DNA of 43,775 nt from Treponemataceae bacterium (GTDB lineage: Bacteria; Spirochaetota; Spirochaetia; Treponematales; Treponemataceae): assembly GCA_024402495.1 (NCBI GenBank), contig JAKSTR010000016.1, positions 1 through 43,775 of the forward strand. The letters are read 5' to 3'. The translations under genes were made by a program, and so were the position numbers. Of this stretch, positions 16,532-27,889 are shown in pieces. The notes below the pieces were generated by a model. The model was not told where the DNA came from. It saw only the letters and a list, made by a program, of their open reading frames with translations, and made no database searches. Numbering within the stretch: position 1 is the stretch's first letter; every line of letters begins with the position of its first letter.

Positions 16532-16640
16532 CGCTTTAATGGCGGCTACCATTACATTTAAGTAGTAGCTAGAATTCTGTTTAAATACTAACTAGTATTG
16601 CGTTTAAATAGCAGTCAGTATTCAAATGCAGTATATCTAA
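16532..16640 (+). repeat. degenerate 23-bp tandem repeats
   Basis: TTTAA recurs at 16535, 16557, 16580 and 16603, i.e. a 22-23-bp period, inside units such as GTTTAAATACTAACTAGTA and GTTTAAATAGCAGTCAGTA. A fifth, weaker unit lies at about 16625. The period is about two helical turns, as for iterons or operators bound by RHH or RepA-like proteins. The array lies between the divergent serS and the minus-strand small-peptide genes. Confidence 0.6.
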
Positions 16641-22651: not shown

Positions 22652-24658
22652 TTGGCACTCACCCTAGCAGAAAAAATTTTGCAGGCGCACATTGTAGACA
22701 GCGCTGAAAAATTTACCAAAGGTCAGCCCATTACACGCGGCAGCGATATTGCTATTCGCATTGACCAAACCCTTACTCAGGATGCCACCGGTACAATGGC
22801 TTATCTTCAGTTTGAAACAATCGGTATTCCACGCGTAAAAACCGAAGTGTCTGTTTCTTACATTGACCACAATACATTGCAGACCGACTTTAGAAACATG
22901 GATGACCACCGCTACTTGCAGTCAATTGCTGCAAAATACGGTATTTATTTTTCTCGTCCGGGCAACGGAATCTGTCATCAGGTTCATCTTGAACGTTTTG
23001 GCGTACCGGGAAAAACTTTGCTTGGTTCTGACAGCCACACACCTACAGGCGGCGGTATCGGTATGATTGCTATCGGTGCAGGCGGTCTGGACGTTGCAGT
23101 TGCAATGGGCGGCGGTGCTTTTCACCTGGCAATGCCAAAAGTTTTTGGCGTTAAATTAACCGGAAAATTACAGAAAGGTGTCGGCGCAAAAGACATCATT
23201 CTTGAAGTATTGCGCAAGGAAAGCGTAAAAGGCGGCGTTGGTGCCGTTTATGAATATTTTGGTCCGGGCGTAGAAACTTTAACAGTTCCGCAGCGTGCCA
23301 CAATTACAAACATGGGTGCAGAATTAGGTGCAACCTGTTCAATCTTCCCTTCTGACGAAGCAACCAAAGCCTTTTTAACGGCAATGGGCCGTGCAGACGC
23401 ATGGAGCGAACTGAAAGCCGACAAAGGCGCAGTTTACGATAAAATCGTTGAAATCAATCTTGACGAACTTGGTTCAATGGCAGCATGTCCGCATTCACCG
23501 GATGCAGTACAGACAATTGCAAGCCTTGCAGGCAAAAAAGTTACGCAGGTTGCAATCGGTTCTTGTACAAACAGCTCGCTTGACGACCTTGCAGCCGTTG
23601 CCGCAATTGTTAAAGGCAAGCACGTTGCACCTGGCGTAGAAGCCGGCATTGCACCCGGCAGCCGCACAACCTTGATGATGGCAGAAAAAGCCGGCATTCT
23701 TGGCGAACTGATTCGCGCAGGTTTCCGCATTCTTGAAAGTGCCTGCGGTCCGTGTATCGGTATGGGCTTTGCACCAAACAGCGAAGGCGTTACGCTGCGC
23801 ACATTCAACCGCAACTTTAAAGGCCGCAGCGGTACGGCAGACGCTTCAGTTTATCTTGTTTCGCCGGAAACAGCCGCAGCTGCCGCAGTTACAGGCGTTA
23901 TTACAGAACCAAAGACATTGCAGTTTGAAAAATTAATCGGCGAAGGCAAAACAATGCTTTCGGGCGAAGCTGCCGTACTTAACAAAGACCAGATTTTGAA
24001 TTTTGCAAAAGATGACGGAATGCTTATTGCTCCGCTCAGCATGGAAGAAGCAGCAAAAGTTGAAATTGTACGCGGTCCTAACATCAAGCCGTGCCCGGCA
24101 ACAGCAGAAGCTGCCGCAAAATTAACACTGCCGGTTCTTTTAAAAGCAGGCGACAACGTAAGTACCGACGACATTATGCCGGCTGGTGCAAAAGTATTGC
24201 CGCTGCGCTCAAATATTCCGGAAATTTCTAAGTTCACATTTGAACGTCTGGACACCACTTTCTACGAACGCGCTTCGGCACTTAACCCGAAAGGCTGTTT
24301 TGTAGTAGGCGGCGAAAACTACGGTCAGGGTTCTTCACGCGAACACGCAGCACTTGCACCAATGTATCTGGGCGTACGTGCCGTAATCGTAAAATCTTTT
24401 GCACGTATCCACAAGGCAAACCTTGTAAACTACGGCATTATTCCGGTTGTATTTGCAAATCCTGCCGATTACGACAAAATCAATCAGGGCGATACTTTGG
24501 AAATTACAAACATTGAACAGGCACTTAAGACCGGCGGCAACTTTGAACTGAAGTGCGGTGCAAACACATTTGAAGGCACCAACACTTTGGATCAGCGCAG
24601 CCGTAACATTCTGCTTGCAGGCGGTTTGGCAGCATATACACGCAACGGCGGACAGTAA
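22652..24658 (+). CDS. aconitate hydratase
   Basis: 668 residues, an aconitase of the shorter class (large LeuC-like domain plus LeuD-like swivel domain). It interconverts citrate and isocitrate using a [4Fe-4S] cluster. The cluster cysteines are in GSCTNSS (about residue 307) and ACGPCIGMG (about 367). GSDSHTPTGGGIG and the swivel-domain GGENYGQGSSREHAALAP with FARIH are also present. In an anaerobic spirochaete it would serve glutamate synthesis through a partial citrate pathway; no other pathway gene is next to it. Start is TTG at 22652, supported by GGAG 7 nt upstream. I cannot tell AcnA from other subtypes by name, so no symbol is given. Confidence 0.93.
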   Translation: MALTLAEKILQAHIVDSAEKFTKGQPITRGSDIAIRIDQTLTQDATGTMAYLQFETIGIPRVKTEVSVSYIDHNTLQTDFRNMDDHRYLQSIAAKYGIYFSRPGNGICHQVHLERFGVPGKTLLGSDSHTPTGGGIGMIAIGAGGLDVAVAMGGGAFHLAMPKVFGVKLTGKLQKGVGAKDIILEVLRKESVKGGVGAVYEYFGPGVETLTVPQRATITNMGAELGATCSIFPSDEATKAFLTAMGRADAWSELKADKGAVYDKIVEINLDELGSMAACPHSPDAVQTIASLAGKKVTQVAIGSCTNSSLDDLAAVAAIVKGKHVAPGVEAGIAPGSRTTLMMAEKAGILGELIRAGFRILESACGPCIGMGFAPNSEGVTLRTFNRNFKGRSGTADASVYLVSPETAAAAAVTGVITEPKTLQFEKLIGEGKTMLSGEAAVLNKDQILNFAKDDGMLIAPLSMEEAAKVEIVRGPNIKPCPATAEAAAKLTLPVLLKAGDNVSTDDIMPAGAKVLPLRSNIPEISKFTFERLDTTFYERASALNPKGCFVVGGENYGQGSSREHAALAPMYLGVRAVIVKSFARIHKANLVNYGIIPVVFANPADYDKINQGDTLEITNIEQALKTGGNFELKCGANTFEGTNTLDQRSRNILLAGGLAAYTRNGGQ

Positions 24659-25011: not shown

Positions 25012-26310
25012 ATGAATTTGAAATACAATTTGGAATTTGACATTTGCGGAATAATAATTCATATCGTTTTGCTGGTAATCCTTAACAGCCTTTACTCAAA
25101 ATCAGAGAACAACCAGCTTTTTAAAAGATTTTTATTTATCAGCCTGATTTCCGGCATTTTTGACGTAATCAGTGCCATAACAATAAGTTACAGTACCCGG
25201 CTGCCGGTTTACGTAAACCTTTTTACCAATACGGTTTATTTTGTTTCGGCGGCGTGCACAGCCTACAAAATGTATCTGTACATTTATACCTGCGTGGACT
25301 TTAAACCCAGATTTGACATTTTTGCAAGCCACCTTGTGCTTTTTGTCTATTTTATTCTGCTTGCAGCAAACTGTTTTACCGGCATAATTTTTAATTTTGC
25401 AGGCGGAACTTATAACGCCGGGCCTTTATATCTGCTGAATTATCTGGTGCCGTTCTTTTATTTCCTTCATTTTACGTACCTTCTGGTTTTTAAATCTGAA
25501 CTTTTCAGCGAAAAACAGAAAATTCTGCACAGCTTTATAATCATTCTGCCAGTTGCGGCGATAATCATTCAGATTATTTACCCAAAAAACCTTTTAACTT
25601 TCTTCGCGTATGCTATTTTTTCTGTAATCATGCTTTTTTCGCTGGAAACCCCGGATTTTGAAGAGCTGGAATACCTGCGCAAAAACCTTGAAAACGAAGT
25701 TGAAAGGCAAACCGCCACCGCCAACGAACGCAGAGAAAAAATCCAGACAATGTCGATGGAGATTGTAGAAGCTCTGGCTGACGCCATTGACGCAAAAGAC
25801 AGCTATACCAACGGGCATTCGCTGCGGGTAGCAAAATATTCGGTACTGCTGGCAGAATCTTTGGGCTGGCACGGCGAACAGCTGGATATTTTGAAGCGCT
25901 GTGCCCTGCTGCACGATGTGGGCAAAATCGGCATTCCGGATTCTATTCTGCAAAAACCGATGAAGCTGAGCGACGAAGAATTTGCCGTGATAAAAAATCA
26001 CACCGTAACGGGCAGCAAAATATTAAAGAACATTTCTTCCCTGCCGGAAGCTTCTCTGGCGGCAAAATATCACCACGAATGCTACGACGGAACGGGCTAT
26101 CCTGAAGGTTTGCAGGGCAAAAACATTCCAGACTACGCAAGAATTATTTCTATTGCCGATGCCTTTGACGCGATGAACACAAAGCGCATTTACAGGGACA
26201 AGCTTTGCCGCGAAGAAATACGCCGCCGTTTGGCAGAAGGCAGCGGCACCCAGTTTGACCCGGATTTGATGGAAAAATTCCTGATGATTATGGACATGAA
26301 CCTGATTTAG
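25012..26310 (+). CDS. membrane HD-GYP phosphodiesterase
   Basis: 432 residues. Residues 1-215 contain about seven hydrophobic helices (a 7TM-like sensor), then a coiled-coil linker (NLENEVERQTATANERREKIQ) and an HD-GYP domain (about 250-425) with HDVGKIGIPD (about 302), the HHE site (about 350) and YDGTGYPEGLQG. HD-GYP proteins hydrolyse cyclic di-GMP, so this would lower c-di-GMP in response to a membrane signal. All catalytic His and Asp positions I can check are present. It is probably translated from a leaderless transcript and is followed by a strong terminator. The PilZ-like gene 4 kb away may belong to the same signalling network, but that is inference. Confidence 0.92.
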   Translation: MNLKYNLEFDICGIIIHIVLLVILNSLYSKSENNQLFKRFLFISLISGIFDVISAITISYSTRLPVYVNLFTNTVYFVSAACTAYKMYLYIYTCVDFKPRFDIFASHLVLFVYFILLAANCFTGIIFNFAGGTYNAGPLYLLNYLVPFFYFLHFTYLLVFKSELFSEKQKILHSFIIILPVAAIIIQIIYPKNLLTFFAYAIFSVIMLFSLETPDFEELEYLRKNLENEVERQTATANERREKIQTMSMEIVEALADAIDAKDSYTNGHSLRVAKYSVLLAESLGWHGEQLDILKRCALLHDVGKIGIPDSILQKPMKLSDEEFAVIKNHTVTGSKILKNISSLPEASLAAKYHHECYDGTGYPEGLQGKNIPDYARIISIADAFDAMNTKRIYRDKLCREEIRRRLAEGSGTQFDPDLMEKFLMIMDMNLI

Positions 26311-26330
26311 ACTGCAAAAACTGAAAAATA

Positions 26331-26370
26331 GCGGCTGGAAAAAAGAGTGCCTTATCCAGCCGTTTTTTTT
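26331..26370 (+). terminator. HD-GYP gene terminator
   Basis: CGGCTGG/CCAGCCG (26332-26338 with 26356-26362) followed by eight T. Confidence 0.93.
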
Positions 26371-26424: not shown

Positions 26425-26601
26425 TTTAAAATACCGTATTTTAAAGCGCCAAGAACTCTTTTCCGTTTAAAATATTTTATTTTAAAGCGGCAAGAAGTCT
26501 TTTTCATTTAAAATATTTTATTTTAAAGCCACAAGAAGTCTTTTCCATTTAAAATATTTTATTTTAAACGGAAAAGAACTTTTTTCATTTAAAATACGGG
26601 G
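26425..26601 (+). repeat. 41-bp tandem repeats with internal inverted repeat
   Basis: Units start at 26425, 26466, 26507, 26548 and (partial) 26588, a period of 41, 41, 41 and 40 bp. Each full unit has TTTAAAAT-N5-ATTTTAAA (8-bp arms; centre ACCGT in unit 1, ATTTT in units 2-4), followed by a more GC-rich stretch with CAAGAA(C/G)TCTTTT. Units 2 and 3 are almost identical, 1 and 4 more diverged. The array lies between the HD-GYP terminator and the HD hydrolase start. Confidence 0.9.
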
Positions 26602-26627: not shown

Positions 26628-26656
26628 TTTTCAAAACCGGCATTGCAACTTACAAT
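26628..26656 (+). promoter_or_regulatory. promoter of the HD hydrolase, near-leaderless
   Basis: TTTTCA (26628-26633), 17-nt spacer, TACAAT (26651-26656). The start would fall at about 26663, which is the ATG itself; no ribosome-binding site is seen. Confidence 0.45.
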
Positions 26657-26662
26657 ATAAAA

Positions 26663-27889
26663 ATGCTTTTAGACAACTTCAATTTTTGCCATGCGGTGCG
26701 CGACCCTGTCTGGCAGCACATTTATTTAACGGAAGAACTTTATCAGACCTGCCAGTCTGCGCCTTTTAAGCGCCTGCAGAATATCCGCCAGCTTGGTCCT
26801 ACAATAATGGTTTACCCCGGCGCAAGCCACACGCGTCAGGCACATTCGTTCGGGGTGTACAACACCGCCCGCAAGCTTTTGCAGCGGCTTTTGAAGCAGG
26901 GCGCGCAAAACTGGGTAAGCCCAGCCGGAGCGATGTCTTTTCTGGCGGCGGCACTTTGGCACGATGCCGGGCATTTTCCCTACACTCATTCGCTAAAAGA
27001 ACTGCCCCTGCGCGACCACGAAGACTTAACCGCAGACATTCTGCTTGCAGAACCCGTAAAAACCCTTATTGACAAAACCGGCGCCGACCCTTTTCAAACC
27101 GCCTCAATAGTCAGCCACCAGCTGCCGGCAGACGAAGAAACCGCATTTCTGCGCAAGCTGCTTTCAGGCGCGCTGGACCCTGACAAGCTGGATTACCTTA
27201 ACCGTGACGCCTATTACTGCGGCGTGCCCTACGGCGTGCAGGACTGCGATTTTATTTTTTCCCATGTTTTTCCGCACAAAAAATACGGAATAGTTCTGGA
27301 CAATCAGGCGGTAATGTCTGTTGAACATCTGCTTTTTTCCAAATATTTAATGTATCAGGCAATTTACTGGCACAAAAACGTGCGCATTGCCACCGCAATG
27401 ATGAAAAAATGTCTGTTTGCCGCATTGCAGCAAAAGCAGATTGCGCCGGAAGAATTATATTCCCTTGACGATGCAAGCATTTTTACGCTGATTAACAGCA
27501 GAAATTTTGCAGAAAAAGCCATTGCAGAAGAACTGCAAAACCAAAAGCTTTTTTCCATTGTTGCCGAAACGCCGTTTAATGAAGAAAACCAGCTGCACGA
27601 TAAGCTGCAAAAGCTGGAATACCGCAGCCAGATTGAAGCAATTCTGGCAGAAAAAGGAAAAATTGCGGCGCAGAATATTTTAATCGACATCCCCGAAAGC
27701 ATAAGTTTTGAATGCAACTATAAAGTTTTTGATTCTTCGGGCAACGAACAGGAACCAAAATCTGTATTTACGCCGGAAACGGTAAAGGCTTTTACAGGCA
27801 ATTTGCGGCAAATACGCATAGCCGTAAAAGCAGATACGCCCCCAAGCACAAAAAACGCAATTGCAGAAACTTTTGCCAGCCTGCAATAA
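26663..27889 (+). CDS. HD-domain phosphohydrolase (dNTPase/SAMHD1-like family)
   Basis: 408 residues. HTRQAHSFG (H56, R58, H61), LWHDAGHFPYTHS (H100, D101, H104, H109) and LDPDKLDYLNRDAYYCG (D177, R181, D182) make up the HD active site of the family that includes dGTP triphosphohydrolases and SAMHD1. Such enzymes remove triphosphate or phosphate from nucleotides and often act on dNTP pools. The C-terminal third is helical and less conserved. There is no regulatory domain that I recognise. Own promoter and terminator. Confidence 0.85.
   Translation: MLLDNFNFCHAVRDPVWQHIYLTEELYQTCQSAPFKRLQNIRQLGPTIMVYPGASHTRQAHSFGVYNTARKLLQRLLKQGAQNWVSPAGAMSFLAAALWHDAGHFPYTHSLKELPLRDHEDLTADILLAEPVKTLIDKTGADPFQTASIVSHQLPADEETAFLRKLLSGALDPDKLDYLNRDAYYCGVPYGVQDCDFIFSHVFPHKKYGIVLDNQAVMSVEHLLFSKYLMYQAIYWHKNVRIATAMMKKCLFAALQQKQIAPEELYSLDDASIFTLINSRNFAEKAIAEELQNQKLFSIVAETPFNEENQLHDKLQKLEYRSQIEAILAEKGKIAAQNILIDIPESISFECNYKVFDSSGNEQEPKSVFTPETVKAFTGNLRQIRIAVKADTPPSTKNAIAETFASLQ

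Follow-up and report, generated by a model that had tools for sequence, protein, structure and literature searches.

A probable lineage-specific repeat of tandem palindromes upstream of an HD-domain gene in a Treponemataceae bacterium

Introduction

Three kinds of described bacterial repeat come close to the arrays reported here. BOX elements of Streptococcus pneumoniae are built as boxA-boxBn-boxC, according to the excerpted text of PMC3049150. REPs usually number more than 100 copies per genome and are associated with a RAYT transposase as well as a GTAG or CGTC tag, as stated in the excerpts of PMC2817692, PMC3116915 and PMC3733652. MITEs are considered under the definition quoted in PMC3049150.

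In this study, we analyzed a stretch of 43,775 nucleotides (the window; contig C68) from a Treponemataceae bacterium with a genome of 2.97 Mb in 202 contigs. It holds an array of tandem palindromes between two HD-type genes, and similar arrays lie elsewhere in the genome. Like BOX elements as the excerpt describes them (PMC3049150), these are short intergenic elements with seemingly distinct end parts, variable internal tandem modules and stable predicted folding, found at several genomic places; unlike BOX elements, they are few, and each end is a variant form of an inner module that builds perfect 21-bp palindromes. The two are likened by build, not by sequence, and by this analogy BOX elements appear to be the nearest known kind in build. 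REP, BIME and REPIN sequences, as far as the excerpts go (PMC2817692, PMC3116915, PMC3733652), are likewise palindromes outside genes that follow one another at regular spacing and in alternating half-orientation, and their paired arms diverge by complementary changes. In contrast, our arrays occupy only five or six loci, no RAYT was recognized, and neither a GTAG nor a CGTC tag was seen at the array ends, which read CGTGATTTAAA / TTTAAATCACG; a REP/BIME family with RAYT was rejected for these reasons. With MITEs, as defined in the excerpt of PMC3049150, the arrays share AT-richness, inverted-repeat ends, strong folding and a lack of visible coding capacity, and the two elements recovered whole, with their folds, show both the terminal inverted repeats and the highly base-paired sequence of that definition. 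Unlike MITEs, they vary in unit number. No clear target-site duplication was seen, and no partner transposase was found.

Architecture of the array

The sequence-only reading of this DNA had described a five-copy 41-bp repeat upstream of an HD phosphohydrolase gene. The repeat is there, with unit steps of 41, 41, 41 and 40 bp and the reported centers (ACCGT in the first unit, ATTTT in the next three), but instead of five copies it consists of four full palindromes of 21 bp (TTTAAA-N9-TTTAAA), spaced 41 bp apart, followed by half of a fifth (Table 1), with linkers of 20, 20, 20 and 19 bp. Tandem Repeats Finder reported 26425-26596, with period 41, 4.2 copies, 87% match and a score of 239. The window contains four exact matches to TTTAAAAT-N5-ATTTTAAA (at 26425, 26466, 26507 and 26548), and 0.88 matches would be expected by chance if up to two mismatches were allowed. 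In none of 60 dinucleotide-shuffled versions of the window did 21-bp palindromes spaced 36-46 bp apart form a chain longer than 1, whereas the observed chain has 4. These results indicate that the chain is far from chance.

Table 1. Features of the tandem-palindrome array and its surroundings in the window
Feature	Position	Strand	Description
Type A tandem-palindrome array	26425..26599		4 full 21-bp palindromes, 4 linkers of 19-20 bp, 1 terminal half-palindrome
Palindrome 1	26425..26445		TTTAAA-ATACCGTAT-TTTAAA, 10/10 dyad pairs
Palindrome 2	26466..26486		TTTAAA-ATATTTTAT-TTTAAA, 9/10 dyad pairs
Palindrome 3	26507..26527		sequence identical to palindrome 2
Palindrome 4	26548..26568		sequence identical to palindrome 2
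Terminal half-palindrome	26588..26599		TTTAAAATACGG, the supposed fifth copy; left half only, then unrelated sequence
Linker 1	26446..26465		
Linkers 2-4	26487-26506, 26528-26547, 26569-26587		
Upstream gene	25012..26310	+	HD_5 domain protein, 432 aa
Terminator-like hairpin	26330..26370	+	rho-independent type, after HD_5 gene; GCGGCTGGA...TCCAGCCG, then T8; fold -17.2 kcal/mol, z -4.4
Downstream gene	26663..27889	+	HD / HD_assoc_2 protein, 408 aa; start 63 bp past array end

The downstream product matched PF19276 (HD_assoc_2) at 85.2 bits and scored 21.6 bits against PF01966 (HD), narrowly under the cut-off of 22 bits, which agrees with the earlier assignment as an HD phosphohydrolase. The array is downstream of the terminator-like hairpin, a feature missing from a separate terminator scan with a loop limit of 8, and is hence set apart from the HD_5 gene. 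The array had also been said to abut the promoter of the HD gene; a single 9/12 sigma-70-like match between them (26628-26656, + strand) lends this weak backing. Scanning of the array region gave five sigma-70-like sites, whereas shuffled sequence would be expected to give 1.3. Of the five, three at 26479-26588 on the - strand overlap the repeats, one for each repeat unit, and we speculate that the repeats could generate antisense promoter-like sites.

Related arrays in the same genome

A genome-wide search for further copies, which had been suggested as a check, was positive. Pattern search, DNA search and a profile of 20 units all pointed to one set of loci: C128:25991-26124 and C113:6256-6608, together with the starts of C2, C17 and C120 and the end of C148. 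Four contig ends thus lie inside arrays, of which C2 and C17 could be joined: the C2 start (reverse complement) shares an exact 53-bp overlap with the C17 start, which makes the two a single array interrupted by a contig break. C148 carries a left array end and C120 a right one, and their flanks match the two C113 flanks; they may form one further array. By our sequence comparison, the total is five or six loci. The pattern TTTAAA-N7..12-TTTAAA had 46 matches in the genome (28 for the control, the pattern read backwards), with 24 inside arrays and 22 scattered, and no solitary site of either type described below was present when the list of 22 was read by eye. The two-palindrome tandem pattern gave 17 matches compared with 0 for its control, and unit-profile matches outside the arrays began only at E 0.02.

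The arrays are of two types. Type A (C68 and C128) reads TTTAAA-ATA...TAT-TTTAAA, and type B (C113, C2/C17, C148 and C120) reads TTTAAA-TC(A/G)...(T/C)GA-TTTAAA; the TTTAAA ends and the linkers are common to both, whereas the inner palindrome differs at mirror-image positions. At positions 7-8 and 14-15 (pairs 7-15 and 8-14), 6/20 units were changed on both sides and 0 on one side, a count whose cells are not independent, as the arrays are homogenized, and which possibly reflects one event. Covariation was absent at pairs 9-13 and 10-12, with 5/20 cells unpaired at each. All four window linkers beat 300/300 shuffles in matching the type B linkers of other arrays on the opposite strand, and so did two of the three C128 linkers, the third (16 bp) being equalled once. 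Because the linkers match across types, types A and B look homologous despite their differing palindromes. Judged from these alignments, dyad symmetry is kept through a sequence change, and such divergence would imply a reader of the palindrome, either a dimeric protein or a hairpin-recognizing enzyme. Conserved arms around a variable center had earlier been taken as a sign of dimer binding. The dyad is indeed kept beyond the individual sequence, since both inner arms change together, but the same pattern also results from tandem amplification of a hairpin repeat.

The whole type B elements show how the arrays are put together. The C113 element is 353 bp long with linkers of 16-15-20-20-20-20-20-16-16 bp, and the computationally joined C2/C17 element is 270 bp long with linkers of 16-15-20-20-20-15-16 bp. 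Both run in mirror order, with half palindromes at their ends (CGTGATTTAAA...TTTAAATCACG), and the observed dyad symmetry of linker order was reached by only 83/5000 and 97/5000 permutations, respectively. Between the 15-16 bp edge linkers lie five units with 20-bp linkers in C113 and three in C2/C17, and each end part is itself a variant of the inner unit. No edge modules are seen in the type A copy in the window. Ten array ends read by eye comprised six half sites, two three-quarter sites (the C2 end and the C128 right end) and two full palindromes (C68 left and C128 left).

A second and far more abundant dispersed repeat of about 190 bp, containing GTCATTCCGAACTTGCTTCGGAATCTG (C113 6020-6215), had 60 matches with E no higher than 1e-4 in its own genome, a count for which 40 of 186 candidates were scored. 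Pieces of it occur in 6/8 genus genomes, own included, and in the left flanks of three arrays (C113, C148 and, reversed, C128).

Occurrence in other genomes

The tandem pattern was found in 1/274 family genomes and 1/8 genus genomes, the own one in both cases. In the seven other genus genomes, the best unit-profile match had E 0.007, and the sequence there was not an array. The earlier reading had held that absence from close relatives together with a lack of other genomic copies would speak against it; the arrays are absent in the relatives searched, but other copies are present in the own genome. The type B pattern had 0 matches over GTDB contigs. The generic two-palindrome pattern matched 47 GTDB and 6 viral stretches, each one a single pair and mostly without inner symmetry: at least 3/4 inner dyad pairs in both palindromes were seen in 3/56 pairs from these 53 loci, compared with 13/17 array pairs of the own genome. 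No chain of three or more palindromes was present in 132 loci outside the own genome. With their low inner symmetry and no such chains, the GTDB and viral pairs were set aside as chance matches; own or very near records are possibly absent from these collections. The plasmid collection gave no match, so a plasmid origin is unsupported, and no description of such arrays in Treponema was among the papers listed from open-licence PMC text. From these searches, the family looks private to this species.

Interpretation

We consider it probable that the window array is a single member of a modular, AT-rich repeat of intergenic DNA that is private to the lineage, similar in build to BOX elements and MITEs, with tandem amplification. 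An arm-linker-arm module with dyad-symmetric arm ends and a 15-20-bp linker would have multiplied head to tail; where two arms abut, they would then read as a perfect 21-bp palindrome, with a linker between one palindrome and the next. Module copies would have been carried to several intergenic places, presumably by spread as an element, and homogenization within each array would have given each its own inner-arm sequence. A dimeric protein, or else an enzyme that acts on the hairpin, may maintain the dyad, and the HD gene would be affected only incidentally, if at all, with the array serving as spacer, roadblock or promoter-like AT-rich DNA. This repeat-element reading is supported by the five or six loci, the linkers common to types A and B, the mirror-ordered linkers, the strong folds and the unrelated neighbors, and further by the dispersed-repeat pieces at three left flanks and the absence from 273 other family genomes. 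Against it count a copy number that is low for an interspersed element and array ends that are not uniform. Inspection by eye of the flanks of C113 and C2/C17 revealed no clear target-site duplication. A Y1_Tnp search of the genome found no cognate transposase; its single match (C186:8801-9157) is an ORF that reads by eye like an ordinary IS200 transposase and has no array units nearby. The C113 and C148 flanks are alike beyond the array; therefore, these two copies can stem from segmental duplication instead of transposition.

The array might instead be an operator to which a dimeric regulator or nucleoid protein binds cooperatively at four or five palindromes, thereby controlling the HD gene, with similar arrays controlling other genes. 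The mirror-image substitutions between types would suit such a site, as would the gene start that adjoins the array and reads away from it at all loci except C128; the C2/C17 array would, if the contigs join, separate divergent TetR-type and MCP genes. However, the C128 array lies between convergent genes for a MATE transporter and thiamin pyrophosphokinase, and the neighbors share no function that would suggest a regulon: the TetR-type gene has a GGDEF-EAL protein behind it, C113 is flanked by unassigned proteins and a UDG-like protein, C148 by ruvA and C120 by an unassigned ORF (the domain scan, and with it the comparison of functions, covered the neighbors at the other loci). Operator sites would be expected to recur before co-regulated genes and also singly, whereas we found arrays only, beside unrelated genes and without solitary type A or B sites. 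The spacing of 41 bp within arrays gives way to 36-37 bp at their edges, a shift of half a helical turn against the 41-bp register, and all seven other genus genomes retain an HD orthologue (56-62% identity) but not the arrays. Owing to the edge spacings, the convergent locus, the unrelated neighbors and the lack of solitary sites, we regard the operator as unlikely, and the proposed in-phase binding as a switch of the HD gene is not supported. As an account of the window array, a repeat element specific to the lineage is more likely than a switch controlling the neighboring gene.

A more speculative proposal, which we rate as quite unlikely, is that the palindromes are sites of a putative reader, either a dimeric DNA-binding protein or an enzyme acting on hairpins, and that its specificity for the inner arm has diverged within one genome into two classes, ATA..TAT and TCA..TGA, with whole arrays switching together by homogenization. 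If true, this would be a tandem-palindrome system with paired evolution of site and reader, private to one species.

The palindromes could also be targets of a recombinase, partition protein or telomere resolvase, with the tandem chain as a loading site. The tandem perfect dyads, the half sites found at several ends and the four contig ends inside arrays would fit this; we nevertheless find it very doubtful, because those contig ends are accounted for by repeats breaking a 202-contig assembly, as the exact C2/C17 overlap illustrates, and no partition or recombinase gene was among the flanking proteins scanned.

Stable single-strand folding is a necessary property of palindromic DNA. The RNA fold of the window array had z -8.1, and that of C113 z -15.7 (+ strand) and -12.4 (- strand). 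Pairing is kept at 95.0% across the linker and 94.4% within the palindrome, so these data do not discriminate between the two possible hairpins, if either is important at all. A functional structured RNA, with the arrays transcribed as long hairpin RNAs, would suit these very stable folds on both strands and the pairing kept in both ways, yet it is the least credible explanation, as the strands fold about equally, which any palindromic DNA would do, the covariation is one A/B contrast inherited by whole arrays, a gathering search of Rfam with the window and six loci matched only tRNAs, and the window array lies beyond a terminator-like hairpin and has no more than a weak promoter match downstream of it. 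A CRISPR array was rejected, as the linkers are near-copies within and between arrays and not unrelated spacers.

On the repeat-element reading, what was suspected to be a local operator becomes a repeat family specific to the lineage, represented in one genome by two symmetric variants. The arrays would offer a clean natural case of how palindromic intergenic repeats amplify, homogenize and retain dyad symmetry, and they call for caution in taking such arrays for promoter control sites.

Two further observations concern the window. Its gene order is an aconitase gene (22652-24658), HD_5 and HD; in the genus relative G004 (L103), an aconitase-like coding sequence, read by eye in the printed DNA, comes immediately before the HD orthologue, so that HD_5 and the array sit between two genes that adjoin each other there. 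Tandem Repeats Finder also reported a further short tandem repeat at 16557-16611 (period 23, 2.4 copies, TTTAAATAGTAACTAGAATTCCG), in which the TTTAAA motif is present.
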